IMG/VR virus record: IMGVR_UViG_3300046003_005061
Coordinates: 1 to 41,024 of that record
Direction: 5' to 3' (one strand)
Source of the DNA: a virus
Length of the DNA: 41,024 nucleotides
The notes beneath the pieces are model-generated. The model was not told the origin of the DNA, did not search any database, and worked only from the letters and a program-made list of their open reading frames with translations. The position numbers were made by a program, and so were the translations under genes. Numbering within the stretch: the first letter of the stretch is position 1; each line of letters opens with the position of its first letter. This document shows, one piece after another, positions 4,229 to 41,020 of this stretch.

Positions 4229-4498
4229 ATGATCAAGCCAGACTCAGCCGAGCGCTACCCAGTGCAGATCCTCAGCCATCCAACCATCAGACATGAGGGC
4301 AATGTGACGATCCTCAGTCAGAGCCACTGGCTGACATACAATGATAGCACCAGCGAGCACAAGACGTTCGACACCTGCCGGATCACCAGTGGCGAGCAGG
4401 CAGCCGCTGCCGACTCATGGCGCGCAAAACTCCGGGCTACCTGGGCACGGCTCAGGCATTGGGCGAACAGTGATTATCCACACCAGATTTCTTCATAG
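4229..4498 (+). CDS. Hypothetical protein (89 aa), last gene of the rightward operon
   Basis: The chosen start (MIKPDSAERYPVQIL) follows the previous stop by 13 bases; an upstream in-frame ATG at 4145 would overlap the neighbour by 71 bases. The N-terminal part looks beta-rich (VTILSQSHWLTYN) and the C-terminal part helical and basic. Its final codons (ANSDYPHQISS) lie inside a 37-bp sequence repeated in inverse orientation at 34777-34813. There the end of an unrelated HTH gene encodes nearly the same tail (NSDYQHQIST). The shared tail therefore reflects a DNA element rather than protein homology. Confidence 0.55.
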   Translation: MIKPDSAERYPVQILSHPTIRHEGNVTILSQSHWLTYNDSTSEHKTFDTCRITSGEQAAAADSWRAKLRATWARLRHWANSDYPHQISS

Positions 4499-4501
4499 CC
4501 A
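4465..4501 (+). repeat. 37-bp inverted dispersed repeat, copy A
   Basis: This segment matches the reverse complement of 34777-34813 at 35 of 37 positions (mismatches at 4479 and 4493). It starts GAACAGTGATTATC and ends TTCATAGCCA. Copy A spans the 3' end of gene 4229-4498 and lies about 110 bp from the end of the phage integrase gene. Copy B covers the start of the IntI-like gene. Flanking DNA is not similar, so it is a discrete element and a candidate recombination site. Confidence 0.85.
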
Positions 4502-4551
4502 CCCAGAAACAAGAAACCACCCACTAAAACCCCCCGCCCAAAAACGACAAA

Positions 4552-4576
4552 GCCGCCGGACACCCGGCGGCTTTTT
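4552..4576. terminator. Strong bidirectional terminator
   Basis: GCCGCCGG, loop ACAC and CCGGCGGC are followed by TTTTT on the plus strand. The preceding ACAAA provides a weaker T-run for the minus strand. It sits between the rightward accessory operon and the leftward integrase gene, which converge here. This is the clearest Rho-independent terminator in the window. Confidence 0.88.
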
Positions 4577-4609: not shown

Positions 4610-5917
4610 TCATCCAGCCCGCGCCGCCAGCGGATCGAGGAACGGCATTGCTGCCCGCGCCTTGGTATAGGTCCGCTCCACCATGTCTGTCGTCGTGTGC
4701 CCACCCGCCGCCGCCGCCATCTCCACGCCGCCATGCTCACGCACCTGCTGCAATCGAATGTGCCTGAAGATGGATGACTTCTTTGTGCCTTCCATACCCA
4801 TGCTTGTCAGCCACTCATTATGCGCTCGATAAGTCATCTCCCCATTCGCCCCGATCAGACTTTCATCCGTCGTCACTTCCAGCACGCCCGCCACCACCTC
4901 CGCAGACACCGGCCACGTCACAGGATTCCCCCGCTTGGTTGTGGGCAGCGTCACCAAACCCGACCCGTCAGCATTCACCGTCAGCGCAGATCGATCCAAC
5001 CGCCGCACCGTGATCGGCCGCGATGCCGTCCAGGCCACCAGTTGATTAAACGCCCACAGCCTCGGACTCTCCACCCTCAGCCGTGCCAGATCCTCTGTGA
5101 TGGCAGCCAAAACCTCCGGCTCAATCTCACGGTGGCCCTTCGGCGCCGTGATTTTCACCGTGAATCCAGGATTGCGCTTTGAACCATCGCCCAGAAACTC
5201 CCGCAGATCCGGCAGCACCAGCCCCGGCAGATACTCATTGTTATTCGCAAACACCGCCTTGGCACAGCGCAGATAACTGTGCACCGTCGTATTGCACTCC
5301 ATCACCTCCGTTTTGTCGATGCCGGCCAATCGCCCCGCCTTCAGCTCAGCGCGCAGCACCGCCCACGCATCCTCAGGAGCCGCCCCACGCACCGACCACC
5401 CGCGCCTGAAATGCTCCTGTCGCATCCGCACCCAGTTCCTCAGTTGCACCGCCGACAGCAGCTTTTCCGTCAGCGCGATCTCATCCGCCGACAGCCCCGT
5501 GATCTCCTCGCAAATCATCCGCAACCGCGCCGCATTCTTCGAATAGTCCGGCTTGTTCGGTGGCACATTGCCCAGATAGACCGCCAGCAGTTCCGACAGC
5601 AGCACCAGTCGGGCAGGCCTCACCACCGCCTCCATCTGTTCCACCTTACCACAGCGCATCGCCTCCAGCTTCGTCCGCATGACAGTCTCCGCCCACACCT
5701 TCACCGCCACCAGTCCATCACGCACCGGATACATCGGCCCCGCCGACACCTCCCACGATTGCCCGCCAACGTGGAATCGCACCAGCCAGTTCGGCTGACA
5801 CTCCGGCACCGTAGGCACCGCCCACCCAGAGCGCGCCTTGGGTTTCTCATAAAAGCGTGCCGTCCCATGTCTGGAAACCAGCAGATTCGTGGCCTTTGAT
5901 TTGTGTGAAGCGATCAT
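4610..5917 (-). CDS. int: Phage tyrosine recombinase (integrase, 435 aa)
   Basis: This integrase would catalyse integration and excision at the adjacent attP (6111-6152). The C-terminal half has a recognisable but divergent catalytic domain: WTASRPITVRRLDRSAL (box I Arg), TTKRGNPVTWPV (beta-hairpin Lys), SSIFRHIRLQQV (box II Arg-His, with Ser where the first His is usual), then GGHTTTDMVERTYTK with the His and the nucleophilic Tyr near residue 415. The N-terminal about 270 residues would hold arm- and core-binding domains. It is leftward and convergent with the accessory operon. Its start overlaps a 12-bp direct repeat, suggesting autoregulation. The degenerate box II is the only oddity. Confidence 0.85.
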   Translation of the reverse strand: MIASHKSKATNLLVSRHGTARFYEKPKARSGWAVPTVPECQPNWLVRFHVGGQSWEVSAGPMYPVRDGLVAVKVWAETVMRTKLEAMRCGKVEQMEAVVRPARLVLLSELLAVYLGNVPPNKPDYSKNAARLRMICEEITGLSADEIALTEKLLSAVQLRNWVRMRQEHFRRGWSVRGAAPEDAWAVLRAELKAGRLAGIDKTEVMECNTTVHSYLRCAKAVFANNNEYLPGLVLPDLREFLGDGSKRNPGFTVKITAPKGHREIEPEVLAAITEDLARLRVESPRLWAFNQLVAWTASRPITVRRLDRSALTVNADGSGLVTLPTTKRGNPVTWPVSAEVVAGVLEVTTDESLIGANGEMTYRAHNEWLTSMGMEGTKKSSIFRHIRLQQVREHGGVEMAAAAGGHTTTDMVERTYTKARAAMPFLDPLAARAG

Positions 5918-6010
5918 GTCAGTGTGAAGCGATGAAGGTTAAACTACCCAGCACACAACCTGATACACAAAAAACCGTGAGAAAGCAAGAGAAACCGTGA
6001 GAAGGTTAAA
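5903..6010. promoter_or_regulatory. Repeat cluster upstream of int, candidate arm-type sites
   Basis: Three pairs of short direct repeats lie between int and the attP core. GTGTGAAGCGAT is at 5903-5914 and 5922-5933 (flanking the int start), GAAGGTTAAA at 5934-5943 and 6001-6010, and AAACCGTGAGAA at 5972-5983 and 5992-6003. Spacing of about 19-20 bp equals two helical turns. Such clusters beside an attP core are typical of integrase or excisionase arm-binding sites. No gene lies between 5918 and 6234. Confidence 0.55.
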
Positions 6011-6110
6011 TGCACCCACAAAAGCACCCCTCAAGCCCACACCCCGCTGGAACCCTGTAAAATCAACCCATCCAGCCCCATTCACCCCCTAAAACCCTCC
6101 AAAACTAAAG

Positions 6111-6152
6111 TGCGCCCGGTGGGATTCGAACCCGCAACCAAGGGATTATGAG
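6111..6152 (-). other. attP: attP core: 3' half of a tRNA gene (CAT anticodon)
   Basis: On the minus strand this stretch reads as the 3' part of a tRNA: anticodon-loop CTCATAA, the 3' anticodon stem TCCCT, variable loop, T-arm with GGTTCGAATCC, and acceptor strand ending GGGCGCA. The 5' half is missing: bases before CTCATAA do not complete an anticodon stem or D-arm. A phage integrating into the 3' half of a host tRNA carries exactly this to restore the gene. A CAT anticodon means tRNA-Met or tRNA-Ile2. The adjacent integrase supports this as the attP core. Confidence 0.85.
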
Positions 6153-6234
6153 AACTCTGTGCCTGTCTCGCGGATCCTTATGGAATAAGGGATGCCGCTC
6201 ATAAATACCAGCCAGCACACATTTTGGCACACGC

Positions 6235-6512: not shown

Positions 6513-9500
6513 TCAAGGCGTGCCCTTTTGGATCTGCTCACGCAGGGCGCTGGCACGTTCACGCAGGGCACGGGCCGCGCGGTCAGCGGCGGCGGCATCT
6601 GGCGCTTTGAAGACAGGCTCGATCATCTTGCCCAGTTGCTCGATGGCTTTGGTGCCGGTCTTGCCGTTCGCCTTCGCCCACGCCATGACCCAGTGGTAAT
6701 CCTTGCTTTGAGTTGCCACAGGCCCGAGCACGAGGCCGGTCTGCTTCAGGGCAGAGGAACCCAGCCGTTTCTCAGGCGTGGTGAAGTCCGTGAAGCCCTG
6801 CCCCAGTCCGCCGTAGGAGTTGATGAAATGATCCACATAGCGCGGGTCCACGCCTATGATCTTGCTCACACCCTTCCCGATGCCGCTGGCCTGATCCGCA
6901 CCCTTGCGCAGTGGCAGTTTCAAATCACGCTCCCAGCTTGGCACGATGTCCCGATTCGTGAACGTGCTCTTGTTAAAGAAAATCTCCGCAGGCACCTTCA
7001 GCGGGCCGAGTGCCGTCACACTATCCACCGGCATCAGTGCCGTGCTCAGGCTGTCACCGTAGCCTTCAAAGGCGCGCTTCTCACCCATCGCCGCGCTCAA
7101 TGCACGCTCCACGCCGCCAGCCAGCACACCCATTTCATGCGGCTTGGGGATGCGCAGCCAGTGGTTTCCCACCTTGAAGTTCCAGAAGAAATCACGCTGC
7201 CACGCAGGCATCTGCTGATACTCCTCTTCATCCTCGGGATCATCACGATTCCACATCCGCATCAGCACCGTGGGGATGCCGATATATAGGCTCCAGCGCA
7301 GCGCAAAGCCCGCCGGATTCTTCATGCCCGTGCTCAGCGTCTTGCCCATGCCGCGCAGGTGCGGATTGCTGAAAGGCACCAGCCGATTGATCACCTTCAT
7401 CATGCTGCCCATCTTCGCGTAGTCCATCAGTCCGCGCGCCTGACTGGCCGCATACAGCGCCGCCTCTTCAGGCGAGTATTTCAGGTCTTTAATGGCGATG
7501 TCATACGCCCGCCGAAACTCCGCGATGCGGCCCACCGTCTCGCTCGATTGCACCACCTTCTCCCAGCGCTTCCACACCTGCCCCGGCATCACCAGAATAT
7601 TACGAGGATCTTTCCGCAGTTCCGCCATGCCGCGCTTCAGTTCACGATTCCACGTCAGCCGGTCCTTCGCGTAGTTGCCGAATTGTCCGCCACCATAGGC
7701 TTCAAACCTGCCCATCTCCGCCTTGGTGTAGCCCTTCAGCACATCCCACGGTTTTGATCCATGCTCACTGATCACCGCCCGCTGGATGGCATCCCTTGGC
7801 ACGTTGCGCATCACAAAGGGCAGTGAATGCGTGATCAAGTAGCGCGTCACGCTCAGCGGAGCCGCTGCCAGATCCAGCAGCACATGGCTGCCCACCTCGC
7901 TCAGTCCCATCATAGCTGCTTGGATGTCCTTATCCAGCTTCCAGTATTCAGGCTTGCCCTCGTTATAGACCACCACCGTGTTCTTGTCCGTGCTCGATGC
8001 CTTGCTGCCGATCAAGTCCAGCTCCACCGCCTCACCCTCATAGAGCGTGCGCGCGGTTTCCAGTTGGTTGGTGAAAGTCTGCATCACCTTGTTGCGCATC
8101 GCCTCCTTTTGGATGGCGTCGGTCATGCCCAGCAGGCTCTTGTAAACATTGTCGATCTCCTTCGTGCTGCCTTTGAAGCGCTTCACCTGATCGCGCACCT
8201 TGCCCACGGCCCCGCTGCTATGGTCAAAGTTCGCCGCCAGATCAAACTCTTCAGAGAGCCGACTCATGTCCACATAATAGTTATTCTCTGCTTGGATCTG
8301 CGTGCGCTGCTCCTTTGACATACGCCCGGAGTCCACCAGATAGTCCAGGTTCGAATCTGCCCAGAGCCGATACCGCCGCGCGGCCTCTTGCAGTCGGCGA
8401 TAGCGTGCCGGGTCAGTCGCCAGGTCAGCCAGCGCTTCATTCGCTGCCTGCACATCACTGATCATGCCCGCACCTTGGCCGGAGAGATTCTGTTTAGCCT
8501 CTGCCGCTTCTGCCAGGATAGCGTTTTGATTCTTCTTAAAGTTAGGCGATGCAGGAGACAGAGCCGCGATTTGAGCCGCCGCTTTCTGGTCGATGATGCG
8601 CGCCTTCTCCAGCGTGCGTTCCGCCACCATCATGCCGCTAGCTTCACGCATCTCTGTTTCTTGCAGTGCCTTGCTCGTGTTATCAAAGGCACCCACCAGC
8701 CAGGTCAGACTCATCGGTTCACCCGTCACCGGGTCAGTGATTCGTTGCACCTCCGGCACACCTTGCGCGTTAGTCACCTCCTGCGGCTTCAGCGGCACCA
8801 GGCCGTTGTCGAGCTGATCACTCAGCCGCGCCGAGTGACTGCTCAGCCAGCGCAGCATCACATCATACTGTTCGCTTGGTTTCAGATCCTTCAGCGTCTT
8901 GCCCTGCATCTTCAGCGCCGTGTTGAATCCCTTCAGCGAGTAGTGGTGACTGTCATCAAACCACGAGCGCAGCTTATCCGTCAGCGTCTTGTTGAACTCC
9001 CGGCTGTCACCAAAGACTGCCGTGTAAAGCCTCTCCTTCAGGCTCGGTGGCTCCATGCGGACGTTCAGAGACGCGCGCCGTCCGGGCCGTTCACCGGCCC
9101 ACGTCCGCACGTCATCACTGAAGGCATTCAGCGCTGCCATGTAGTCCTTTGGGATTGTCTTCTCAAAGTAGGCCGCAAACTTCGGTGCCTGCTTGATCGT
9201 CGCCGCAGGGTCCATCACATAGGCCCGCACAAATTCAGCGATACCTTCCGCCCGCTGAATCTTGATGTCTTTACTCGGGCTGCCATGAATCCAGAACCCT
9301 GCCAGCTCCGCATCATAGGGAGAGGTCGGGCTTTTCATCCACGGCTTGCCCAGGCCGTGCTTGTCATCTGTCCAGTGACCGGCCAGCTCATGCGCTGCCG
9401 TGTCCAGATCCCCGGCAAACTTAATGGCCGTCATCGTTGAGCCAGGCCGATAGACACCGAGCTGTGTCGGCTTTAATCCACGCACCCGCATGGCCTTGCC

Positions 9501-12500
9501 GATGTCTTTGGCAAAGTCCTCGATGATGCGAAAAGGTGACTTCGCCAGTCGGCCCGTGATCGGACTCACCGGGATGCGCGCAGGCGGTGGCGGAGGTGCT
9601 GGCTTCGGTGGCGACGTGCTCCGTGGCGGTGGCGTCGTGTTCCGTGGCGGTGGCGTCGTGCTCCGTGGCGGTGGCGTCGTGCTCCGTGGTGGTGGCGTCG
9701 TGCTCCGTGGTGGTGGCGTCGTGCTCCGTGGTGGTGGCGCTTGCGGTTGAGGAGCGGCAGCGCGTGGGGCCGCTGCATTCGTCGGGCGCGTGCCACTGAA
9801 GACATGGCGCATCCAGTCCATCTTCACCGCACTGGTCGGATTATCCGCCTGCTCCACCATGAAACGCTTCATCAGCGGCACATACACCGCCTTGTCGCTC
9901 ATCTTCATCGCTTCCAGAATGGCATCGAAGTCCTTGGCCGCGAATGCCTCGTCAAACATCTTGGCAAAGGACGCCTGCGTGAACATCTGTCTGCTCAGTT
10001 CATCCGTGGCCGCACTCTCCGGTTGCGGGTAGCGCTCGCGGAAACCTGCTTCCATGTCATCAAAGGCGGATTCATCGCCCATCTGCGCACGCTCAAAGGC
10101 CGTGTCTTGAGTGGCTTGCTTGCGGAAAAGTTCTTCATCCAGTTTCCCCTGATCCCGTTCCGCTTCCCCGGCGCGTTTCGCCCCGCCGAGTTCAGCCAGC
10201 GGGTCAGCGGCTTGAGTCGTCGCTGTCTCGCCCACGTTCATCGGGCGCGTGCTCGTGCCCATGTCGCCAAACATATCCGCGCTCGTGTCCACGGCGGCCG
10301 GTGCGGGCGCCGTTGGTTCAGGCGTGAAGCCAAACATATCCGCGCCAGTGTCCACAGGGGCGGGTGCCGCTGGTGCTTCCACCACTGCCGCCTTCCTGCC
10401 CGTCACCATCTCCATCAAATCAGGATGCGCAGGCCAGTTCTCCCAGCGGGTCAGCGTGTTCTTCAGCTCCGCCAGCTTGCGGTTGATGCCTTCAGGATCT
10501 TTGACATCCACGCCCAGCTTCGCCGCTGTCTCGGGTCGCTTGGCCGCGCCAGATACCGCAGCGATCTGATCCCGCAAATCCTTTTGTGCTGCCGTGGCCC
10601 GCTTGCCCTGCTCACGCCACGCATCATCCAGGCTCGTGTCAGCGAAGAAGTCGCCTTGTGTCGATGTCTCCGCACGGCCAGCACGCGCGGCCTTCATGGC
10701 GTTCACCGCATCCGCCGCACTGGCACCACTCAGCGCGGCACGGATGCCTACACTCTGCGCGCCTGCGTCTCCCGGTGCTTCCAGTGCCACCGCTGCCGCT
10801 GTCTGCTCGCCGATCTTGCCCGCACGATAGAGCGAATAAAGGTCATCCCCCGCCGCCTTGCCCAGCGCGTAGCCCTTGCGGCCTTTGTCGCGTGCCAGCA
10901 GTCCTCGGCTCGTGGCTTCTTCCACCGTCACGGCGGCATTCTTGAAGTAGTGCGCGTAGTCTCCCACGCTGCCCTGCCCATCCTTGATGTTTGATTCAGC
11001 GTCAAAGGTGAACGCGTCCGCCACCGTAAAGCCATCCGCCTCACGGACGATCTGAGATGGAATGGACTTCTCACCCATCCGCCGCGCCAGATCCAGCCGG
11101 TGCCGTCCGGTGATGACTTCCTTGGCTCCATTCATCCGCTCCCAGAGCACGATGGGAGCCGTGCCCAGCCGGTCATACTTGCCGCTGAGTTGATCCCCCT
11201 CGACCACGCCCGTGCTCGTGTTGCTGCCTTCCTTGAAGTTCGGCACATCTTTAGAAAGGCTGATCTCTTTCAGTGGCACCTCACGCGATGGATACAGGCT
11301 TGTATCCTCGATAGCCGTGGTTGTCGGTGGCAGGTCCGGGCTTTCGATGATGGCCTTCACCTGCTTCACCAGGGCAGGAGGCATTCTCTGCCACTTGCTC
11401 GCAAAATCATAATCGCTCCAGCCCAGCACCTCCGGCTTCACGCCCAACTTCTCCAGCGCGGCCACCTTTGCGGCAGCCTGCACTTCAGGCGGTGGCGTTT
11501 GCAGCACCTCCGCCAGTTGCAGCCGCTCCGCTGCCACGTCTGGCGTGATGTGGCCCGCCTGCACGTCCGCCAGCAATCCACTGGCATGAGTGCGCAGCGG
11601 TGCCGTCGGTGGTAGATCACGAGTCACCCCGTCAAAGTAGGTGGAAAGAGTGTCAACGGCTGGAGTCGAACCCGCACCACTCGGCACCGCGCCGGGAGCG
11701 CTTGGTGGTGGAGTGTTCCCCGGTGTCGGTGCTGCTCCCGGTGTCGGTGCTGCTCCTGGTGTCGGTGGTGCTCCTGGTGTCGGTGCTGCTCCCGGTGTCG
11801 GTGCTGCTCCCGGTGTCGGTGCTGCTCCCGGTGTCGGTGCTGCTCCCGGTGTCGGTGCTGCTCCTGGTGGTGGCACAGCTCCCGGCGTCGGTGCTGCTCC
11901 TGGTGTCGGTGGTGGCACGGCCCCCGGCATCGATGCTGCTTGCTGCCGTCCATTCCCTGCCATTTGCAGACCGCCAAACAATAGCCCACCCGCCGCGCCG
12001 CCAATCGCTTCCTGCTTCCGGCGTTCCAGCATGGCCGCGTCCAGCGCGGGCAGTTGGTAGCCTGTCTCTGTGAAGCCTGGGCGGTTTGGATCTGCCACCG
12101 CTTGCCCCGCTGTGTAAGTGGCGATGTCTTGTAGCGTGCCTGAAATCGGTTCTTCGATGGCTTCACCCAGCACGGTTTTACCGGCTTGCTTGAGTCCAGC
12201 TTTCACCCCGCTTTGCAGCATCTCGGCTGCCGCCTTGCCACCGATCCCGCCCATGCGTTCCGTCAGTGCTTCTACTCCGGCAAAGGTGCCACCCATCGCA
12301 AGCTGACCATACGGGTTTTGAATGCCCATCTGTTCGGCTGTCTCGATGCCTTGCCCCATGCCCAGCGCCCCACCCATGACCAGCGGCACCGTCGTCATCG
12401 CTGCCTTCATGCCCATCACGGGAGCCGCGGCCCCGGCTGTCGCCAGCAGAGTCGCTGCTTGTCCCACGCCCTCGCCTGCAATCCTTGCCGTCGGGTTCGC

Positions 12501-13991: not shown

Positions 13992-14702
13992 TTAGATTCG
14001 TGTCGCTGTCAGTAAATCGAAGTGCGCTGTCGTGTCTCCAGGTGAGTTGTAAGCTGTCGTGAATGGCGCGACTGTCGTGCTCGCCCCCGCATACCTTGCC
14101 CGCACCGTCGTTTCCCGCACTTTGCTGACGATTGCGATTGGATCACCCTCGACTACGGTTTGATAATAAGTCAGGTCAAAATCTGCCACACCTGCTTGAA
14201 AGCCTGTCTCAAAGGTCAATTCCCGATCAGTGAAATGCCCGCGCAGATAACACGTTACCGTGGCGTTCTTCGTTAGGTTTGACTCGACTTGATCCGGTGC
14301 CACCTCCGGCAAGTCCTGCTGAAAGGGAATGCCCGGAAAGTCTTCATCCGCATCCACGTCACCTTCCGTCACGATGTCCGGCAGCACGTCAAAGAAAAGT
14401 TCCTGCTCGGTGCCCCGTTCCTTGTCGATGTAGCCGAGAAACCGTGGCTCATACACAAACGTGTCACTCACCTGGCCCGGCTCAGTGCTCGTGTAAATCT
14501 GCTGCATTGAGACGGCCACCCACACCACCAGATTCCAGCCGCGCTCGGGCTGCTCGCCGTCGTTCTCCAGTCCCGCCACGCTGACCAGATCGCCCTGCAC
14601 ATTCACACGTCCACCGCCGCTGACATTGAGGCGCTGCATCTCCTGCGAGATGCTTTGATCCGCATGAGCTAGCAGTTGGTTGACTTGATCTCGTGTCATC
14701 AT
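13992..14702 (-). CDS. Hypothetical virion protein (236 aa)
   Basis: The start overlaps the upstream gene by ATGA (14699-14702). The N-terminus is a helix (QVNQLLAHADQSISQEMQRL); the rest is beta-rich and acidic (EGDVDADEDFPGIPFQQDLP), consistent with a tail or connector component. No domain recognised. Position between the large tail protein and the internal virion proteins suggests a structural role. Confidence 0.65.
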   Translation of the reverse strand: MMTRDQVNQLLAHADQSISQEMQRLNVSGGGRVNVQGDLVSVAGLENDGEQPERGWNLVVWVAVSMQQIYTSTEPGQVSDTFVYEPRFLGYIDKERGTEQELFFDVLPDIVTEGDVDADEDFPGIPFQQDLPEVAPDQVESNLTKNATVTCYLRGHFTDRELTFETGFQAGVADFDLTYYQTVVEGDPIAIVSKVRETTVRARYAGASTTVAPFTTAYNSPGDTTAHFDLLTATRI

Positions 14703-30946: not shown

Positions 30947-32947
30947 TTAGTAGCCAAATTCTTGTTGGGGTCGGCGCTTGAACCGCTCCAGATCGATGTG
31001 TCTCGGGTTGGCATTCAGCAGGTAGCGCAGCACGTCGATGGGGTCTTTCCACGCGCTCTGCGCAGCCCCCGGCACGGCATAGCCAGGGTAGTTTTGCAGG
31101 GCACCGATCAAGTTCGTGCAATGCTCCGCAATCCGCACCTGCGGCCCGCGCCCGAGTTGCGGATCTACCTCACGCCAGCCAGTCTTCTCATTGATCACGG
31201 CCAGCTCACGATTCCACATGAGCATGGAGTTGATGTTCTGTTCACCGGGCATGACGCGGCTGCTGCCCGCCTCGCCCCCGGCATCCCTGCCTGCCTGCAT
31301 GAAGTAAAGTTTGTTGTCTTCCATCCACTCGATCATGGTCTTCCCACCGTCTTGATTCTCACCCGTCGAATTGGACGAGCGACTGTCTGCAATGCGCCTG
31401 CCCCACAAGTTCAGCATCGTGCCCTCCAGATGATTCTGCTGTTCAGTGATCCCTTGTAGCGCGGCCAGCTTGGCCTCAATGCGCCGGATCTCACTGGCAC
31501 GGAATCCGTAGCCGACAGGCCATTGCTTCTGCGCATTGCCTTTGACGCCCATGCCGTGTTTGCCGCCCGACTTCGCCCATTCACAGTCCTCCCCTGTAAA
31601 CATCGACGCACCAGGCACGCACACCACATCACTCGCTTGCGGATACTCATGGGCGATAAAGATGTCACCCGGCCCGAAATGACCGTGTGCCTTGCCCAGC
31701 ACAAAAGCCCACAGCATGAACCACGCACGGCCACCCGTGGCATTCGGATCACAGGCCATCCACCACGTCCCAAACTCAGCAGGCGGCAGCCATGAAATCG
31801 GCCTCACATGCACCTGCACATTGAAGTTCGGAAACGGTGAATCTGCCGTGCCTTCGGCGATGCCGTAGCACTTCCACAGCTTCTTCGCGCGTGGACTGCC
31901 CAGCTCCGCCTTCTTCATCCCGTCCCAGTTCCCGCCGAGCGGATTCTGCCAGGCATAGATCCACATGAAACGCCGCGTCGGGTTCTCACAATGAACCACG
32001 CAAGGCAGCTTCTCACCGCCCACGATGACTCCATCCTCATTGCGCCGTGGCAGCAAGTCACGGTCAGCCTCGATCTCACGCACAGTCTTGGCCTTCTCCA
32101 TGAACCAGCGCACCGTCTCGGTGTAACCATCGCGGAAGGTGTAAGTCACGAACTGCACCGCCACCAGCAACCGGCCAATCAAGTCACGCGGAAACCACAT
32201 CTCAGGATCACGCTCCTTTGCGGCCAGCAGTTCCTTCCATTTCGAAATCCATTCATGTGTGAACTCCGCCGCTGTCAGCAGTCGGTTCTCCACCGCTTCC
32301 AGCACATTCACCGGCACGCTTTCATCACCCCAGGCTGTTGTTGGCCTCGGCCCTTCCAGCTTGCCGATGTCTTGCGCCCAGGTCTTGAACCGGCACACCG
32401 CGCCACTCATCACCGCGCACTCGTTATTCGTGAAGCCGCCCGCTGCATCATAGGCCATCTTTTGACTCGCCAGCTTCTTCATGCGGCCCGTGTCCGTCTT
32501 GTAGTCGTTCGGCTGCCAGAACCGCAGCGTGGCCTCCACCACTTCCGCGCTCTTGTCATCGTCGATGCTGAACGTCCAGAACGTCCGCTGATGCGCTGGC
32601 ATCTCCGGCTCGCACTGCTCCATTGCCAGTGAATAAAACCGCCCCAGCGCCATCGTCTTGCCCGATCCATTGCTGCCACCAATCCCCATCGTGCAAGGCA
32701 CACCAGGATTCGCCACCCGCAGCCGCGTCGTCTCCCACAAAATATCGTCCCACGACCGGAAGAACCAGCCGTGATGATAAGGATCTTCACTCGCCTCACG
32801 AATCCGATCCTCGCGCGCCGCCACCGCCGCCATCGCATCCTCCGCCCCCAGCGCCATCAGCTCCGCGCCAGTGATGGGCGGCAGCATCCCATGCGGTCTT
32901 TGTGTCTCTGCCAAAAGTTCAAACGCCAGTTTTTCCTCGTCGTTCAT
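30947..32947 (-). CDS. terL: Terminase large subunit (666 aa)
   Basis: This is the DNA-packaging motor and nuclease. The Walker A motif GSNGSGKT is at residues 91-98. A Walker B-like site with catalytic Glu is TAWGDES at 204-210. The nuclease domain starts around WWMACDPN (Asp400), and a conserved-looking SWKDPIDVLRYLLN stretch is near the C-terminus, typical of terminases. The start overlaps the upstream small gene (ATGA, 32944-32947). Length is at the upper end for the family. It belongs to the late operon with the small subunit-like gene two genes upstream. Confidence 0.88.
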   Translation of the reverse strand: MNDEEKLAFELLAETQRPHGMLPPITGAELMALGAEDAMAAVAAREDRIREASEDPYHHGWFFRSWDDILWETTRLRVANPGVPCTMGIGGSNGSGKTMALGRFYSLAMEQCEPEMPAHQRTFWTFSIDDDKSAEVVEATLRFWQPNDYKTDTGRMKKLASQKMAYDAAGGFTNNECAVMSGAVCRFKTWAQDIGKLEGPRPTTAWGDESVPVNVLEAVENRLLTAAEFTHEWISKWKELLAAKERDPEMWFPRDLIGRLLVAVQFVTYTFRDGYTETVRWFMEKAKTVREIEADRDLLPRRNEDGVIVGGEKLPCVVHCENPTRRFMWIYAWQNPLGGNWDGMKKAELGSPRAKKLWKCYGIAEGTADSPFPNFNVQVHVRPISWLPPAEFGTWWMACDPNATGGRAWFMLWAFVLGKAHGHFGPGDIFIAHEYPQASDVVCVPGASMFTGEDCEWAKSGGKHGMGVKGNAQKQWPVGYGFRASEIRRIEAKLAALQGITEQQNHLEGTMLNLWGRRIADSRSSNSTGENQDGGKTMIEWMEDNKLYFMQAGRDAGGEAGSSRVMPGEQNINSMLMWNRELAVINEKTGWREVDPQLGRGPQVRIAEHCTNLIGALQNYPGYAVPGAAQSAWKDPIDVLRYLLNANPRHIDLERFKRRPQQEFGY

Positions 32948-33147
32948 CGTGTTTGATGTTGGTTTCCCTTGCCATTGAAAGAGTTAAATTCCTCGCAGAC
33001 GTAATCCGCCAGCATCTCGTTGATCTTCGCAGACAGGCTTTTCCCGTCTCGAAAGCATTTGTTCTTTGCCAGCGCCATCACGATGGGCGTGAGCGTGATC
33101 GAGGCATTCACCTTCTTGACGTTCGGGTTTATCTTGGGTCGGCTCAT
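32944..33147 (-). CDS. Small ribbon-helix-helix-like protein (67 aa)
   Basis: The sequence VKKVNASITLTPIVMALAKN followed by GKSLSAKINEMLADYVCEEF has the strand-helix-helix layout of Arc/CopG-type DNA-binding proteins. It overlaps neighbours on both sides by ATGA. Placed between the two terminase genes, it may be a late regulator or a packaging accessory. Confidence 0.6.
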   Translation of the reverse strand: MSRPKINPNVKKVNASITLTPIVMALAKNKCFRDGKSLSAKINEMLADYVCEEFNSFNGKGNQHQTR

Positions 33148-33770
33148 GGTTTGTCATTCGTGATTCGGATTTCCTCATGCTGTGCCACTGGCACCACCTC
33201 CACCTCCACACTCGGTTCACTCAGCGGCAGCGCCGGTGCCTTCATCTTCTCACGCGCCAGTTTCATAAAGTCCTCAAACGTCTTGGCCTTCCTGCCATCA
33301 TCCGTGTTGCCGCTGATCCTCGTCGCCCCGCCACTGCTGAGCTGCTTCACGTTATACACCGCCGTCAGCGCCATCGCCGCTGCTCCCAAATCCTTCGCCG
33401 CCTTGGCTGTATAAAGAAGTTCCTCAATCTTGTCCAGAGCATCTGCCGAAAGCAGTGCTGACCGACGCCGGATAATCTCATCAATTTCCCCCGGTTTGAA
33501 CTCATCCCGATCATTAAACAGCGCGATGATCGTATTCCGCGAAATCCCCGGCAGACCCCGCGCTTCTCGGTGTTCATCGACCATCCGTTCCAGTTTGGAT
33601 TTATTGGTGAGGCCAAGCCCCCGAACCAAATACACTGCAAACTGGAAGCTCTCCGCATCCCGCTCCTTCCACCTCTCCGCCGTATGCGCCCGCCATTCCC
33701 CCGCCGGAGCTTCCGCTAATGGTTCCCCATCCATCGTCATCAATGGCAAACGTGGTTGATCTTCGTTCAT
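33144..33770 (-). CDS. terS: Terminase small subunit-like protein (208 aa)
   Basis: The start at 33770 (MNEDQPRLPLMTMDG) overlaps the stop of the IntI-like gene as ATGA; a longer frame reaching 33875 would lie within that gene. Residues about 40-100 are a helical, HTH-like DNA-binding region (LTNKSKLERMVDEHREARGL, then GISRNTIIALFNDRDEFKPG). The rest is helical and ends with a variable tail. Position before the large subunit, size and helical layout fit a small terminase that recognises the packaging site. No specific family was matched. Confidence 0.65.
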   Translation of the reverse strand: MNEDQPRLPLMTMDGEPLAEAPAGEWRAHTAERWKERDAESFQFAVYLVRGLGLTNKSKLERMVDEHREARGLPGISRNTIIALFNDRDEFKPGEIDEIIRRRSALLSADALDKIEELLYTAKAAKDLGAAAMALTAVYNVKQLSSGGATRISGNTDDGRKAKTFEDFMKLAREKMKAPALPLSEPSVEVEVVPVAQHEEIRITNDKP

Positions 33771-34777
33771 GCGCAGCGGGCCTGGGGTTGGGCTTGTGGG
33801 AATAACAGAACATTCGGAGCATCCGGCATCACATCCAGCGGGCTGGTGATCGTCTCGGCAAACTTGGGCACGCAATGCAAATATACCTGCGTCGTCTCCA
33901 CCGAGTTATGGCCTAACAACTCCTGCACCTGCGTGATGCTGGCCCCATTCGCCAGCAGGTTCGTGGCGAACGAATGCCGCAGCGTGTGGGCCGTCACCCG
34001 TTTCGTGATGCCACACTTACGCACCGCCACCCGCAGCGCCTTCCCAAGCGTGTGTTCATGCACATGATGCCTTCTTACGATCTTGGTCCGTGGGTCAACC
34101 GACTCGCCACCCGCAGGCCACAGCCAGAACCATGCCCACTCGCGCCCACCGTTCGGAAACTTCCGTTCCAGTCCATCCGGCAAATAGATAGGCATTCGGC
34201 TTTCAGCCCGGTCCCGTTCATAGATCACCCGCACCCGCTCAATGTGTGCATGGAGCCGATGCACCACCGTTTGCGGCAGCACCGTGATGCGATCCTTGTC
34301 ACCCTTCCCACCCCGCACCGTGATGAGTCGCGCATTCAAGTCCACATCCTTCACCCGCAGATTCAGCAGTTCCGAGATCCGCAGCCCTGAACCATACGCC
34401 ACCTCAGACATCAGCCGAGTATTGGCCGGCATCGCATCCAGCAGCAGCCGCATCTCAGCCGGAGCCAACCACGTCGGCAGCCGTTGCGGCCTCTTAGCCC
34501 TTGCCCACTTGCCGATTTCCCCCAGCGGTTCCTTGATCACGTCCCGATACAGAAACACAATCGCATTCAGCGCTTGGTTCTGAGTCGAAGCCGCCGAGCA
34601 CGGAGCCAGTTTCTCCAAGAACAACCGCACCCGCTCCTCACGAGTCCGATCCGCACAAGTGCGGACATGCTCACCAAATCGCCGAATCCATCCCGCATAC
34701 GTTTCTTCCGTGTGCCGAGACAGCCGCCGCATTCGGCACACCAGTCTCACCTGTTCATACATTTCGTGTTTGTTCAT
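33767..34777 (-). CDS. intI: Integron-type integrase, IntI-like tyrosine recombinase (336 aa)
   Basis: Residues 1-95 form a SAM-like core-binding domain (LSRHTEETYAGWIRRFGEHV). Catalytic residues are Arg133 (YGSGLRISELLNLRVKDVD), Lys158 (GGKGDKDR), His264 and Arg267 (HTLRHSFATNLL), His290 (LGHNSVETT) and Tyr299. Residues about 200-240 hold the insertion that defines integron integrases (LERKFPNGGREWAWFWLWPA, then DPRTKIVRRHHVHE), and the C-terminal SPLD is also shared with IntI proteins. XerC/XerD lack this insertion. It would recombine attI/attC-like or related sites. It is coupled by ATGA to the terminase gene. No attC array or attI consensus was found nearby. Confidence 0.88.
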   Translation of the reverse strand: MNKHEMYEQVRLVCRMRRLSRHTEETYAGWIRRFGEHVRTCADRTREERVRLFLEKLAPCSAASTQNQALNAIVFLYRDVIKEPLGEIGKWARAKRPQRLPTWLAPAEMRLLLDAMPANTRLMSEVAYGSGLRISELLNLRVKDVDLNARLITVRGGKGDKDRITVLPQTVVHRLHAHIERVRVIYERDRAESRMPIYLPDGLERKFPNGGREWAWFWLWPAGGESVDPRTKIVRRHHVHEHTLGKALRVAVRKCGITKRVTAHTLRHSFATNLLANGASITQVQELLGHNSVETTQVYLHCVPKFAETITSPLDVMPDAPNVLLFPQAQPQARCA

Positions 34778-34813
34778 GGCTATGTAGAAATCTGGTGTTG
34801 ATAATCACTGTTC
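34777..34813 (-). repeat. 37-bp inverted dispersed repeat, copy B
   Basis: Read on the minus strand, it matches 4465-4501 at 35 of 37 positions. It covers the last codons of the small HTH gene (stop at 34780-34782) and the first base of the IntI-like ATG. Its position at the 5' edge of a recombinase gene is where integron integrases keep their primary site, but no GTTRRRY-type core was recognised. Confidence 0.85.
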
Positions 34814-34995
34814 TCTGACTTGCGCTTACCTCTCGGCCTGCGGAGCGACTGAATCGCTAGGACTGCCTCGTTGGTGATGGTCATCGTGCCGTTTTCCCGC
34901 TTCGCCACTGTCACGCGATTGACGCCCAACAACGAGGCAACCTCGGCTTGTGTGCCGAGGCGCTCGCGGATGGCCTTGTATTCAGTGGCGGTCAT
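34780..34995 (-). CDS. XRE-family HTH regulator (71 aa)
   Basis: Residues about 4-58 match a lambda-repressor-like (XRE) HTH: YKAIRERLGTQAEVASLLGV followed by NRVTVAKRENGTMTITNEA. The C-terminus is basic (RRPRGKRKSE) and ends NSDYQHQIST within the dispersed 37-bp repeat. It overlaps the upstream gene by ATGA and is followed two bases after its stop by the IntI-like start. It probably regulates either the late operon or recombinase expression. Confidence 0.8.
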   Translation of the reverse strand: MTATEYKAIRERLGTQAEVASLLGVNRVTVAKRENGTMTITNEAVLAIQSLRRPRGKRKSENSDYQHQIST

Positions 34996-35273
34996 GGTGC
35001 TAGCATTCTCTCCGCTTCTATGAGTTTTTTGGCTTCATCCATCCGCGTTTGAAGATCGTCGTTGCTGTCGTTATCCATGCAGTGCTGATCCACCTCGTAG
35101 GATGCCACCAGCAGTTCGAGCATCTTTAGCCACCGCGCCGCGTTTGCCCGTTCTTTGCAGACTGCCGATTGATACGCGCCGAATGATCCGCACGCGCTTT
35201 GCGTTTTGCGGTCACATTCCAGACCTTGCCACGGTATTTCGCGGCTTCCACACCAGCGGCACCGTGCGCTCAT
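34992..35273 (-). CDS. Small protein with Cys-rich N-terminus (93 aa)
   Basis: CRWCGSREIPWQGLECD with further Cys (SACGS, VCKE) suggests a small zinc-binding knuckle at residues about 5-40; the rest is helical (AARWLKMLELLVASYEVDQH). Overlaps both neighbours by ATGA. No family recognised; a small DNA- or RNA-binding accessory is possible. Confidence 0.6.
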   Translation of the reverse strand: MSARCRWCGSREIPWQGLECDRKTQSACGSFGAYQSAVCKERANAARWLKMLELLVASYEVDQHCMDNDSNDDLQTRMDEAKKLIEAERMLAP

Positions 35274-35446
35274 TGCGCAACCTCCATTTTAAGCACGGCA
35301 CGCACGCACCGCTTATTCATTGCCAGCCATTCTCCATTGGCAAGGCGGATGAGCCAAGCGAACGGTGCGCCACCAAAAGCGTTTTTGTAGCAGATAAGCC
35401 TAGCGTTGATCTTGCGGGAGATTTGGATGTTGGAGCGTGTTGTCAT
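35270..35446 (-). CDS. Small basic protein (58 aa)
   Basis: First gene of the leftward late operon as read here. The start at 35446 (MTTRSNIQISRKINARLICY) follows an A/C-rich leader (AACCAAACCAAACAACACT); an upstream in-frame ATG at 35485 would sit in an operator-like inverted repeat. Basic and beta-like (PFAWLIRLANGEWLAMNKRC). Function unknown. Confidence 0.55.
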   Translation of the reverse strand: MTTRSNIQISRKINARLICYKNAFGGAPFAWLIRLANGEWLAMNKRCVRAVLKMEVAQ

Positions 35447-35581
35447 AGTGTTGTTTGGTTTGGTTACGTTCCTAGTGTGTAGCATAAAGCTACACTGTGC
35501 AAGTCCTTATTTGAAGATTTTTCACCAACGTCAGAGAACAATGAGATGCAGTCCAACTTCGCTTAGGCTCAGTGGCTGATC
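35447..35581 (-). promoter_or_regulatory. Probable late promoter/operator region
   Basis: This gap between the replication and late operons contains a perfect inverted repeat GTGTAGC-ATAAA-GCTACAC (35477-35495) and a CAA-rich leader downstream. A TATGCT-like box lies inside the repeat on the minus strand. No clear -35 at proper spacing was found. It may be the site where late transcription is started or controlled. Confidence 0.45.
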
Positions 35582-35872
35582 TCAAACGTTCGCCCTCTCC
35601 TCGTAGCGATCTTCCGTCATCCATGAGTTGTGCCACATGAGCTTGCGATCTTCACACGGCATCCCTCGTGTGGTGCGATCATATCCGCGACAACACGGGC
35701 AATCCCAGAACTCCGGCGAGTCTGAGTTGCAGCGCGGGCATACATTCCAGCGCAGCCGCCGCAACGCCATCCAGTATCTCAGCGTCCATCGCAGCGAAGT
35801 TAGCAAGCCACGCCAAGGGCGAACAAGGCGCGGCAGATCAACAGCAGGGGCGGTTGTGTTTGGTGTGCTCAT
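35582..35872 (-). CDS. Small zinc-ribbon-like protein (96 aa)
   Basis: The central CPRCNSDSPEFWDCPCCRGY (about residues 45-64) has four to five Cys in CxxC pairs typical of a zinc ribbon. The N-terminal half is basic with a predicted helix (PWRGLLTSLRWTLRYWMALR). It lies after ssb in the leftward direction. A nucleic-acid-binding role in replication or transcription is plausible but not proven. Confidence 0.6.
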   Translation of the reverse strand: MSTPNTTAPAVDLPRLVRPWRGLLTSLRWTLRYWMALRRLRWNVCPRCNSDSPEFWDCPCCRGYDRTTRGMPCEDRKLMWHNSWMTEDRYEERANV

Positions 35873-35939: not shown

Positions 35940-36386
35940 TTAAAAGGGAATGTCATTACCCTCCCCGGCTCCGCCAAACACTGCGCCCATCGACTCGTTA
36001 CCCGTGGCATCACCGACCCCCGGCTTGCTCACTGGAGCCGCTCCCGCCTTGCCTCCGCGTGACTCGCCACAAAATTCAAACTGCTCGACCACTACCAGCG
36101 TCTTGCTGCGCGCCTTGCCTGTTTCCTTGTCCGTCCACTTGTCCTGCGCCAGCCGACCTTCGATCAAGATGGGCGATCCCTTCTTGAAGAACTGGGCGAT
36201 TGTCTCCGCCTGTTTGCTCCATGCCTGGCATTCCAAGAACACCACCTCTTCCTTCATCTCCCCCGTCTGCTGATCCTTCAACTTGCGATTCACCGCAATC
36301 GCAAACTCCCCCACCGCCGTGCCCTTCGGCGTGTAGCGCAGATCCATGTCGCGTGTCAGATTACCTTTAAGTATGGTTCGATTCAT
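35940..36386 (-). CDS. ssb: Single-stranded DNA-binding protein (148 aa)
   Basis: OB-fold SSB: MNRTILKGNLTRDMDLRYTP, then FAIAVNRKLKDQQTGEMKEE, FLECQAWSKQAETIAQFFKK and GSPILIEGRLAQDKWTDKET. It has a Gly-rich linker and an acidic tip ending NDIPF that docks partner proteins. It coats ssDNA in phage replication. It follows the DnaB-like helicase gene, and its leader is three tandem copies of TGTTGGTTAA (read on the plus strand) without Shine-Dalgarno. Confidence 0.93.
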   Translation of the reverse strand: MNRTILKGNLTRDMDLRYTPKGTAVGEFAIAVNRKLKDQQTGEMKEEVVFLECQAWSKQAETIAQFFKKGSPILIEGRLAQDKWTDKETGKARSKTLVVVEQFEFCGESRGGKAGAAPVSKPGVGDATGNESMGAVFGGAGEGNDIPF

Positions 36387-36388
36387 TG

Positions 36389-36418
36389 TGTTGGTTAATG
36401 TTGGTTAATGTTGGTTAA
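36389..36418. repeat. Three tandem 10-bp repeats before ssb
   Basis: TGTTGGTTAA occurs three times in tandem. On the coding (minus) strand it reads TTAACCAACA, giving the ssb leader the CAA-rich AACCAACA motif seen before other operon genes. The repeat overlaps the last codon and stop of the helicase gene. Confidence 0.85.
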
Positions 36419-37947
36419 TCTGGAAATGCCCCGTCCATCTCTGAGTCTTTTTTGCCTTTGCTTCCCTTGTCCTTCTTCCCGGTGGCATCGTGGCTTTGAT
36501 AGCCCTTCTGCCGCTCGGCTGAATTGTTGCTGAACAGTTTTTCTGTCGCCGGATCAAAGCGCGCCAGCGGTGCAATGAACCGCAGTGGAATCACTGCCTC
36601 AGAACTGTGGCGCGACTTCACCAGCAGCAACTCGGCTGCCTCCATGTAGGCACCCTCGCTGCCATAATAGTCCTGCTGGTTCTCCTTCAGCCTTTCCCAC
36701 GGAATGAACTTGCATGGCCGGTGAACAAAGGCCGCGTAATCGGCCCACTTCTCGATAGCACTCGACCCGTCAAAGTCCCGCAGCGTTGGCCGCTTCCCTG
36801 GCTGGTCCTCACTGCCGCGCGATGCCTGAGCCAGCGCAATAATAATCACATCGCATTGCTTGGCCGCTGCCTTCAGCCCACCCACGACTTCCTTGATCCC
36901 CATGCGTTCATCCTGCTTCCCAGCCTTGGTCACGGCCTCGATGATCTGGATATAATCAATCATCACCACCCGGATGCCCCACTTTCTTTTGGCCGCACGA
37001 ATGCGCGCACGCACATCAGCAATCGTCAGTTCTGGAGTGTCATCCACCCACACCTGCGACTTCTGCCACTTAATTGCCGAAGTCATCACACTCGTTTCAT
37101 CGTCCTTGGATAGAAACCCCGTCTTGCCCTTGCTCTGCTCGACATCGGCAGCCGAGAAGAGAACACGCCTGCCCACCTGCATTCTCCCCATCTCCAGAGA
37201 GAACATCAGAGTCGGAACCTGCTGCTCACCCAGCATGGCAAAGGTCATGCTCTCCATCAGCCTCAGAAGCAGATTCGTTTTCCCCATGCCTGGCCGCGCT
37301 CCAATGACAAACAAATCAGGCGCTTCCAGTCCGTTGATGGTTCGGTCCAGATCCGGCAGGCCCGTCTTGACGCCGCGAATCTTGCCCTTGTTCTTCATCG
37401 CCTGATCCAAGTCTTCCAGCGTCTCGCTCATCACGGTGCTCATGCTTACCGCCTGATTGCTCTGCTCCAGCACTTGCAGCAAAGACATCTCAGAATCTGC
37501 GCACTGCATCGCTTCCTTCCATGATCGTGTCATGTCCATCGCCATCATCCGACTCTCCTGAGCCGTAGCAATGATGGTTCGGCGTGCCAGCCGATCCGTG
37601 AGCGTTTCACACCACTGATCAAAGCCCAGCAGCGTCGTGTAGCCCGTGGTCAGTTCCATGACAAACGAGGCCGTCACCAACTGATCCAGCACCTCATGCT
37701 CACGCAGCCAGTTCACCACATTCACCGGCTCGATGATTTTGCTGGCATCCGCCATCGCTCTCAGCTCGACAAACAAAGCGCGGGTATCCGGGCAGTAAAA
37801 GTGATCATCACGCAGCTTTCGAATCGCATCGTCAGCATACTTGCCAGGATCACTCAGCATCGCACCGAGCACACCTTGCTCCGCCTCACGGCTGTAGGGA
37901 ATGGATGGGTCGCTCACTGTGCGCCCCCCTTTTCTTTTTTCTGCCAT
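36415..37947 (-). CDS. dnaB: Replicative DnaB-like helicase (510 aa)
   Basis: An N-terminal helical domain (SREAEQGVLGAMLSDPGKYA, residues about 19-38) and a RecA-like C-terminal ATPase domain are present. Walker A GARPGMGKT is at residues 216-224, Walker B VVMIDYIQII around Asp331, and the motif FSLEMGRMQVGRRV fits the DnaB family. It would unwind DNA at the phage origin, loaded by the neighbouring initiator. It overlaps that gene by 34 bases. The C-terminal tail is Lys/Gly-rich low complexity (KKDKGSKGKKDSE), not typical of host DnaB. Confidence 0.92.
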   Translation of the reverse strand: MAEKRKGGRTVSDPSIPYSREAEQGVLGAMLSDPGKYADDAIRKLRDDHFYCPDTRALFVELRAMADASKIIEPVNVVNWLREHEVLDQLVTASFVMELTTGYTTLLGFDQWCETLTDRLARRTIIATAQESRMMAMDMTRSWKEAMQCADSEMSLLQVLEQSNQAVSMSTVMSETLEDLDQAMKNKGKIRGVKTGLPDLDRTINGLEAPDLFVIGARPGMGKTNLLLRLMESMTFAMLGEQQVPTLMFSLEMGRMQVGRRVLFSAADVEQSKGKTGFLSKDDETSVMTSAIKWQKSQVWVDDTPELTIADVRARIRAAKRKWGIRVVMIDYIQIIEAVTKAGKQDERMGIKEVVGGLKAAAKQCDVIIIALAQASRGSEDQPGKRPTLRDFDGSSAIEKWADYAAFVHRPCKFIPWERLKENQQDYYGSEGAYMEAAELLLVKSRHSSEAVIPLRFIAPLARFDPATEKLFSNNSAERQKGYQSHDATGKKDKGSKGKKDSEMDGAFPD

Positions 37948-38900
37948 TCCTGCCTGAGTTCGCGGCGGGCATCTTCCGGCACATCAGACCACTGCTCCCA
38001 GCACCCGCCATAAATTCCGTTGGCGATGCCTTTCCAGTTCCACTCCGGCGGCGTGTCCTCACGCGGAAGCTGTGGCAATGTCGCCAGTTCATCCTCCTGC
38101 GCCTGATCCGCCTCATACCGCCTCTCCGCCCATGACTTGACCCCGCCGCCCCCTTCTTTTTTTTGCCCTCCCAAACCTGGACTTTGGCTGGATGCGTTTG
38201 AACTTCGGAGATCTCCACCGCGATCCTGCTCCTTTTGCAGCCAGGTCGTGATGAATTTGCGCCAGTTGCTCTTCTTGGCCTTCAGCGGATTCGACTTCAA
38301 CCACTGATCCATCGCCAGCAGTTGCCGGTTGATGTCGCAGGCCGGATATGCCTCCGACCATTCAAGCATGACCAACTCACCACAGCCTTGCCAGGAAGTC
38401 TTCAGACTCCAGAATGGCACAGGTGCCGCTGGCTCTGATCCGACAGGATCGAGCTTAAATCCTGTTCCCTGTTCCACTTCCCTGTTCCCTGTTCCCTGTT
38501 CCTGCACAGTTGCGTCATTGACGACTGGCATATGTGTCAATGATTCGTCATTGATTCGTCGTTGATCAATCTCAGACGGTTCACTGATCTTTGAAGCCTT
38601 GGGCCTTTGGATTACTTGGTGTTTGTGAAAACTGACCACATGCCCGACATCCCGACCATCAGCCGTCTTCGACAATCTGACGTAGCCAATCGACTCCAGC
38701 GCGGCCAGCATTTTCGGAATGCTCTTCAAATTTTCAGCAAACGGCATCAATTCTCCGCGAATCAGCGATGGATGCGCGAGAAAATAGCCTTCATCATCGG
38801 CCAAATTCAGCAGACCGATCGCCAGCAAGCGCACTTCTGGTGCCTGCTCACACATCACCTGGTGCTTCCAGAAGTCCGGTTTGAGAGATCTGATTCTCAT
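37914..38900 (-). CDS. Replication initiator, lambda O-like with internal repeats (328 aa)
   Basis: The N-terminus (MRIRSLKPDFWKHQVMCEQA, then VRLLAIGLLNLADDEGYFLA) is typical of phage O-like proteins with a winged-helix DNA-binding domain. Residues about 120-150 are encoded by a cluster of direct repeats (QEQGTGNREVEQGTGF), probably the replication origin. The C-terminal third has a Gly/Lys-rich linker and a helical domain that may contact the helicase. It precedes the helicase gene with a 34-base overlap. The first gene of the operon with ori inside it recalls lambda O. Confidence 0.82.
   Translation of the reverse strand: MRIRSLKPDFWKHQVMCEQAPEVRLLAIGLLNLADDEGYFLAHPSLIRGELMPFAENLKSIPKMLAALESIGYVRLSKTADGRDVGHVVSFHKHQVIQRPKASKISEPSEIDQRRINDESLTHMPVVNDATVQEQGTGNREVEQGTGFKLDPVGSEPAAPVPFWSLKTSWQGCGELVMLEWSEAYPACDINRQLLAMDQWLKSNPLKAKKSNWRKFITTWLQKEQDRGGDLRSSNASSQSPGLGGQKKEGGGGVKSWAERRYEADQAQEDELATLPQLPREDTPPEWNWKGIANGIYGGCWEQWSDVPEDARRELRQEWQKKEKGGAQ
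38461..38575. other. Candidate replication origin (iterons and AT-richer repeat)
   Basis: Inside the initiator gene, five copies of the 7-mer CTGTTCC lie in 38461-38504 (two, a degenerate spacer, then three). Next, at 38513-38572, GTCATTGACGAC and the units GATTCGTCATTGATTCGTCG form a second repeat array in a more AT-rich stretch. Iterons followed by an AT-richer region inside an O-type initiator gene are the lambda-type origin layout. Confidence 0.6.
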
Positions 38901-39121
38901 AGTGCGACCTCCTTTTTTCCGCCTTCACGGACCCGTGCCTCATAGGCGATGCAGAAATCACGAACCGCCGCTTTGGTATCAGCCATGCTGCCTGGACTCG
39001 GCTCCAGCAGTTTCAGCACATGCTTCACCTGGCGCAGCAGGGCATAGGCACCCGCAAGCATCACTTGCTCCTCGGTGGCCTTAATCGGCTTGGATTCTTG
39101 TATGTCGTGGTGGTAGGTCAT
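38897..39121 (-). CDS. Small hypothetical protein (74 aa)
   Basis: The start at 39121 (MTYHHDIQESKPIKATEEQV) overlaps the preceding stop by ATGA and its own stop overlaps the initiator start by ATGA, so it is clearly within a coupled set. It is mostly helical (AGAYALLRQVKHVLKLLEPS, then DTKAAVRDFCIAYEARVREG). Possibly a replication accessory; no family recognised. Confidence 0.65.
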   Translation of the reverse strand: MTYHHDIQESKPIKATEEQVMLAGAYALLRQVKHVLKLLEPSPGSMADTKAAVRDFCIAYEARVREGGKKEVAL

Positions 39122-40895: not shown

Positions 40896-41020
40896 CATTT
40901 ACAAGCCCAAAACAGGGGATTCAGAATCCCCTGTGCAGCGGAAACGCCAGAATCCAGGGCACCGAGTCCGCCCAGATCCAGCCCGCGCGCCATTGCCGAC
41001 TTTTCCCCCGTCTCACAATC
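40896..41020. repeat. Right copy of 125-bp terminal direct repeat
   Basis: Identical to 1-125. After it only TCTC remains, which differs from the bases that follow the left copy. If the contig is a circle, the four terminal bases may be an assembly or read error, or population variation at the junction. Confidence 0.9.

Follow-up and report, generated by a model that had tools for sequence, protein, structure and literature searches.

A probable phage-owned integron

Integrons have been studied as bacterial platforms that are sometimes carried by phages, and the locus described here raises the question of what an integron-type integrase gene is doing in the operon of a phage, and on which sites its product would act. 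The window, by which we mean the whole stretch of DNA analysed, is a virus record of 41,024 bases. It carries a 125-bp terminal repeat in direct orientation (1-125 and 40896-41020), and so is probably a complete, circularly assembled phage genome; its class in IMG/VR may differ. It encodes an SU10-like major capsid protein (E-value 1.7e-13), and profile matches identified a replication initiation protein, an SSB (35940-36386, minus strand; PF00436, 2.7e-31) and a DnaB helicase (36415-37947, minus strand; PF03796, 1.7e-58). The gene in question, intI (33767-34777), starts with ATG, encodes 336 residues and lies between the SSB gene and two terminase candidates. From sequence comparisons we conclude that intI is very probably the integrase of an integron owned by the phage, and that some phages appear to run integrons of their own.

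A preliminary description of this DNA had reported the open reading frame, which is real, while leaving its location on the minus strand unstated, and had described it as coupled by an ATGA to the small terminase gene. The overlap is exact, the TGA stop of intI occupying 33769-33767 and the ATG of the next gene (33144-33770, minus strand) 33770-33768, whereas the identity of that gene as a probable small terminase draws on its position and a weak match (phrog_2538, E-value 0.11). The probable large terminase (30947-32947, minus strand) gave no match of its own to terminase profiles, has ~34% identity to a relative (L047:5516-7546) that itself weakly matches Terminase_6N, and yielded an unusable AlphaFold model (mean pLDDT 44); both terminase calls beside intI are weak. 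The claim of a phage-encoded gene in an operon setting held, as intI sits in a block between the replication genes and these probable terminase genes.

Family identity of IntI

The earlier call of an integron-type integrase agreed with the profile scores: the NCBI integron integrase model TIGR02249 scored the protein at 331.3 bits (cut-off 265), while both Xer models missed it (XerC, 138 bits against a cut-off of 335; XerD, 141.5 against 330). The catalytic residues that had been listed, R133, K158, H264, R267, H290 and Y299 (R132, K157, H263, R266, H289 and Y298 when the initial Met is not counted), are kept in the alignment of relatives. Like XerC and XerD the protein belongs to the tyrosine recombinase superfamily; unlike XerD it has the insertion said to set IntI apart (LERKFPN..WFWLWPA..DPRT..RRHH), which we also found in IntI1, in Virus Rctr41k and in Vibrio cholerae IntI4. 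The last is its closest relative among solved structures (2A3V, E-value 1.9e-60). The gene at 33767-34777 is a genuine member of the integron integrase family.

A virus-only clade of integron integrases

Searching IMG/VR with the protein alone gave 9 loci, and with an alignment query 209, of which 80 were kept; a search of ~85,000 bacterial and archaeal species genomes gave 508 loci, of which 80 were kept, the best being 49% identical. The preliminary description had named a tree as a check on its family assignment, and in our tree the protein falls among IntIs, within a set of 22 IMG/VR virus rows that includes no cellular row (SH-aLRT 99) and is separate from the 50 cellular rows as well as from other groups made up of viruses only. 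The top cellular IntIs, from the species genomes and from Verrucomicrobiota, have ~50% identity to it; IntI was found at E-values of 1e-70 or less in 91 of 388 Verrucomicrobiota genomes, none above ~50% identity. When 20 Verrucomicrobiota IntIs were added to the tree, one (L228) joined the 22-row virus set, beside L170. This sequence is a 3.7-kb contig of a Verrucomicrobiota MAG on which intI adjoins an AAA gene with a weak MuB-like match, and given this phage-like neighbour the simplest reading of the contig is phage DNA. L228 was the sole sequence from a cellular bin within the phage IntI clade, and it hints at Verrucomicrobiota hosts and at Mu-like members of the clade. The place of intI among replication and packaging genes recurs across the mosaic phages of the clade; all these relatives are metagenome contigs, in which single junctions could be assembly chimeras, but several independent contigs agree.

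It is very unlikely that the IntI of the window is a passenger with no role in the phage, brought in by chance capture of a host integron fragment: such captures exist in Vibrio anguillarum and Shewanella prophages (PMC9892861) and IntI is common in Verrucomicrobiota, but the 22 virus rows form their own clade, in which attI is conserved and intI repeatedly sits among genes for replication and packaging, cellular IntIs come no nearer than ~50% identity except for the phage-like MAG contig, and the cassettes run in the direction opposite to cellular ones. The tree largely refutes this explanation.

Virus-labelled IntIs were also seen outside the clade. Eighteen rows (L176-L210, e.g., L208, L197, L186 and L199) form a second clade, in which 3-11 attC sites of the classical GTTRRRY type are arrayed upstream of intI and the cassette genes point toward intI (28:1); in one of them, L179, ParB and a second integrase adjoin intI, so that these may be phages or phage-plasmids. 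The "xerD integrase-like" gene of Virus Rctr41k groups with integron integrases too, and two IMG/VR loci, L202 and L213, join its virus-only branch.

attI sites

Directly 5' of intI lies a block of ~36 nt (34778-34813, minus strand) that extends from the start codon out to an AAC/GTT core (34810-34812), and the same block, with AAC at its outer border, recurs upstream of intI in members of the clade. When 18 relatives were aligned on the AAC, mean identity was 70% on the intI side and 29% outside the core, and the distance from core to start codon ranged from 35 to 74 nt. The outer letters in several relatives are GCCTAAC or GCATAAC, the reverse complement of the integron core. With AAC/GTT outside and the body toward intI, this is the exact layout predicted for an attI, and we designated the block attI1. 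A DnaA box had been a candidate, as TTATCCACA occurs in many copies; this word is absent in L005, L007 and L008. Because it is not conserved, and because divergence starts exactly at the core, we rejected readings of the block as a promoter, a DnaA box or a dif-like site.

The window holds a second copy, attI2 (4465-4516, plus strand), with an 87% match to the attI1 region, placed at the 3' end of a rightward operon just before a terminator-like hairpin; two copies were observed where 0.01 would be expected by chance. We found no attC near attI2 and recognised no cassette there. The copies are inverted and 30 kb apart, such that inversion between them is possible, of which we saw no evidence. 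In a related 39-kb contig (G008, 3300032296_003095) there are three attI sites, each with correctly oriented upstream attC sites: at 9666, before intI (attC at 8333, 9131 and 9425), at 14306 (13618 and 13998), and at 38442 on the minus strand. The last precedes a terminator-like hairpin, as attI2 of the window does, and has its own array, with minus-strand attC sites at 39035 and, if the contig is taken to close into a circle, at 93-185, 453-582 and 846-936 across the contig end. In G007 and G009 an attC and an attI precede portal-like or terminase-like genes, on fragment sequence without intI. One IntI serving several arrays in trans would be the simplest reading.

Cassette movement among relatives

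Comparisons between close relatives show precise gain, loss and exchange of cassettes at the core, in those relatives and not in the window itself. L143 and L145 have flanks that are identical over 520 bp and 99.6% identical over 5.7 kb, and L145 carries an extra 1,797 bp exactly at GAAC, between an HTH gene and attI; in L144 an insertion of 1.8 kb occupies that position. The insert of L145 has a hairpin of attC layout at its attI-distal end, as attI x attC integration predicts and as in classical integrons. In L148, L149, L150 and L154 the attI and intI are nearly the same (98% over 30 nt inside the core), while the DNA outside is unrelated (32%), and these exchanged blocks also start with hairpins of attC layout. 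A 303-bp cassette of L148 that lies between two GAACG cores is missing without a scar from L150. L138 and L145, whose IntIs are clearly different, share two cassettes at 99.7-100% identity, followed by different ones. As a separate observation, the first inserted cassettes of L144 and L145 (L144:478-680 and L145:4060-4260) differ only in the left arm of the attC and the 5' leader, the L144 attC looking as if two different attC sites had been fused close to the start codon of the gene.

These junctions make it highly improbable that the repeated block is a promoter or other regulatory element next to which genes came to differ through ordinary homologous or illegitimate phage recombination. Phages are mosaic, and extra copies of the block precede late genes or terminator-like hairpins, as that explanation would have it, but divergence begins exactly at the AAC/GTT core, the attC of an insert sits at the end predicted for it and excision leaves two cores joined and no scar, and a pure promoter explains none of these core-precise changes.

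As the preliminary description noted, the window has a separate phage tyrosine integrase (4610-5917, minus strand; a weak profile match to phrog_1, E-value 2.6e-4). Nearby, at about 6111-6153 on the minus strand, is a sequence like the 3' half of a tRNA with a CAT anticodon loop, at which no complete tRNA was found and which is probably the attP core for that integrase; none of the 388 Verrucomicrobiota genomes had a tRNA attB match to this 42-nt piece with one mismatch or fewer. That IntI is instead the phage's own genome integrase, with attI as its attP, is very unlikely. In its favour, IntI belongs to the tyrosine recombinases, is encoded by a phage and has the site beside its gene; against it, the stretch 4610-6153 holds another integrase together with an attP-like core derived from a tRNA, and the variation at attI consists of small attC cassettes gained or lost, not of prophage junctions.

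attC sites and covariance models

A hairpin scan with the pattern AAC-N8..10-arm-loop-arm-N8..10-GTT found 59 sites in 27 clade loci, some of them near-copies of one another, as compared with 9 in shuffled sequence; 54 of the 59 lay 6 kb or less upstream of intI. Twenty-four distinct sites aligned without gaps, with standard pairs in 88% of pair cells and 11 stem pairs changed on both sides, counts that lean upward since pairing was used in selecting the sites; a slide by one column destroyed the pairing. Both the attC rule and the model were made after junction examples had been seen, so these hairpin statistics are partly circular. Features that had not been selected for include an invariant G after the AAC and a near-invariant TT and C in the right arm.

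Our covariance model of the phage-type attC (R2) found 63 sites at E-values of 0.1 or less across 463 kb. They share the strand of the attI that they serve, and many are outside the training set, some in loci that had contributed nothing to it; these outside hits, like the invariant G, are free of the circularity. R2 also scored a class 1 integron attC at 32.8 bits and found cellular attC sites, so by this independent measure the clade sites are attC-like. A model of the classical attC (R1, RYYYAAC/GTTRRRY) detects the arrays of cellular integrons and of another viral clade; at E-values of 1 or less it found nothing in the window and almost nothing in the window's clade. R1 is nearly blind here because the R boxes are mostly GTTCNNN; the classical boxes hold for only some clade sites. 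From the R1 result we had at one stage viewed the clade as IntI without cassettes, a view reversed by the junction comparisons and R2.

The cassette in the window

The preliminary description had proposed scanning the window for attC with a covariance model, and R2 (filters off) returned one site, at 35533-35594 on the minus strand (AAC at 35588-35590; 30.3 bits, E-value 1.5e-5). R2 alone found it, the strict hairpin scan having given no site in the window above chance. It is among the weaker attC sites, its single-strand DNA fold is unremarkable (z -1.46), and its DNA is ~90% identical in G002. The attC core lies 778 bp upstream of the attI1 core, and the ends of the segment between them, GTTCTCT and AGAGAAC, are complementary, as expected of cassette ends. 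Bounded by these cores is a cassette (34810-35589, ~778 bp, minus strand) with three small genes directed toward intI, encoding a 71-residue HTH protein (34780-34995; PF01381, E-value 2.3e-6) whose last codons and stop lie inside attI1, and proteins of 93 (34992-35273) and 71 residues (35270-35485) with no Pfam match, all on the minus strand. Cassettes with HTH genes recur in G002, L143, L145 and G011, where they are the first, second or fourth cassette counted from attI.

The contrast that had been implied between this gene and integrons beside cassette arrays therefore fails, as intI has its own attI and an attC-bounded cassette directly upstream, and arrays in relatives reach about ten cassettes. 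Three kinds of substrate had been offered for the enzyme, of which the phage's own attI and attC sites are the best supported, while host cassette arrays and a "37-bp repeat" are not. The attI, the attC, the cassette and the second attI had been missed.

Cassette direction, shared tails and cargo

A strand test by codon score placed 13 of 58 phage cassettes toward intI and 1 away, with 44 undetermined; cellular integrons, as a control, gave 0 toward and 3 away, and another viral clade 28 toward and 1 away. In L166, the lone phage case scored as away, a C5 methylase is encoded on the strand that reads toward intI, and cassette ORFs with Pfam matches point toward intI. In the window (34780-34813), L146, L048, L143 and L148-L150, attI supplies the C-terminal tail and stop shared by otherwise unrelated cassette proteins (e.g., ..NSDYPEQLSR and ..NKNYPD; pattern NSDYPxQxS or NKNYPD), because the cassette ORFs stay open through the core.

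By Pfam the cargo includes N6/N4, Dam-type and C5 DNA methyltransferases, an RNA ligase, a PAPS-reductase-like protein and a DnaG zinc ribbon. Many cassettes encode DNA methyltransferases, and the swaps adjacent to attI in L148, L149 and L150 replace one methyltransferase by another. The likeliest advantage, which we suggest with moderate confidence, would be that DNA modification can be altered rapidly to counter restriction by the host.

A proposed mechanism

We consider it probable that these phages represent a dedicated viral integron lineage, in which one phage IntI and several attI copies, each anchoring an array that reads inward, allow methyltransferases and other accessory genes to be exchanged site-specifically at operon boundaries. 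IntI would be expressed from the operon that also carries the replication and terminase genes, would bind attI as double-stranded DNA and attC as a folded single strand, for which phage replication is a plausible source, and would act at the G^TT/AA^C core to recombine the two. A cassette freed as a circle from one phage genome could then enter an attI of the same or a co-infecting phage. As the cassette genes point toward attI and intI, read-through of the phage operon would express them at once, in place of a cassette promoter, with the attI sequence often adding the final codons and the stop. IntI of the window would be the catalyst, presumably acting at some stage of infection and serving several attI sites in trans, although an IntI supplied by the host could also have moved the cassettes. 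The payoff would be that accessory genes, those for DNA modification among them, are traded quickly to counter the defences of the host.

Comparison with known systems

Phage-borne integrons are already known, mostly as pieces taken from hosts; the one described here appears to be a variant dedicated to phages. In four temperate phages, Qi et al. 2023 (PMC9892861) reported integrons, most of which closely copy those of hosts. In virulent and other phages they reported attC clusters that have no integrase (CALINs), some with methyltransferases, those of virulent phages lacking IntI; of six phage attC sites, five recombined with attI1 when IntI1 was used. In that study the IntI of Shewanella prophage M16-3 is 95% identical to that of S. 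oneidensis, with attI at both integron and CALIN, and the V. anguillarum phages carry part of their host's integron. Our phages resemble those in having integron parts and attC cassettes with DNA methyltransferases, and differ in that IntI belongs to a distinct viral lineage, with an attI of its own, a recurrent place in an operon and up to three attI-anchored arrays per genome. With class 1 and chromosomal integrons (IntI1, IntI4) they share the catalytic set, the insertion, an attI at the start of intI, attC sites with paired arms and an extrahelical base, and the polarity of attI x attC insertion. Unlike those integrons, however, the phage cassettes run toward intI rather than away, R boxes are mostly GTTCNNN instead of GTTRRRY, there are several attI per genome, and the IntI of the window is ~41% identical to IntI1. 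In Virus Rctr41k (KX853513) an IntI family gene annotated as "xerD integrase-like protein" (4680-5678) likewise lies upstream of a terminase region, but the window protein is 38-39% identical to it and on a different branch of the tree; R2 found no attC in Rctr41k at E-values of 0.1 or less. Our searches of open-licence PMC papers turned up neither an IntI clade specific to viruses nor reversed cassettes in phages.

If viruses have an IntI clade of their own, complete with attI, cassettes and visibly recent cassette movement, phages would own integrons in their own right. Part of phage mosaicism would then have a concrete, testable mechanism, in which cassettes are exchanged site-specifically where operons meet, as would the fast change of DNA-modification genes against restriction, and a large cassette pool that may exchange with bacterial integrons would be added.

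Other features of the window

The only repeat near the size of the "37-bp repeat" is a 39-nt direct repeat (1562-1600 and 2558-2596, 97%), which is neither attI nor attC. It lies just upstream of two genes of the rightward operon, with a third copy (62%) at 4518-4556, and is possibly a regulatory leader. A 2117-residue protein encoded at 6513-12866 matches only PHROGs of unknown function, and its gene contains internal tandem repeats of 21 bp and 18 bp (9606-9739 and 11719-11911).
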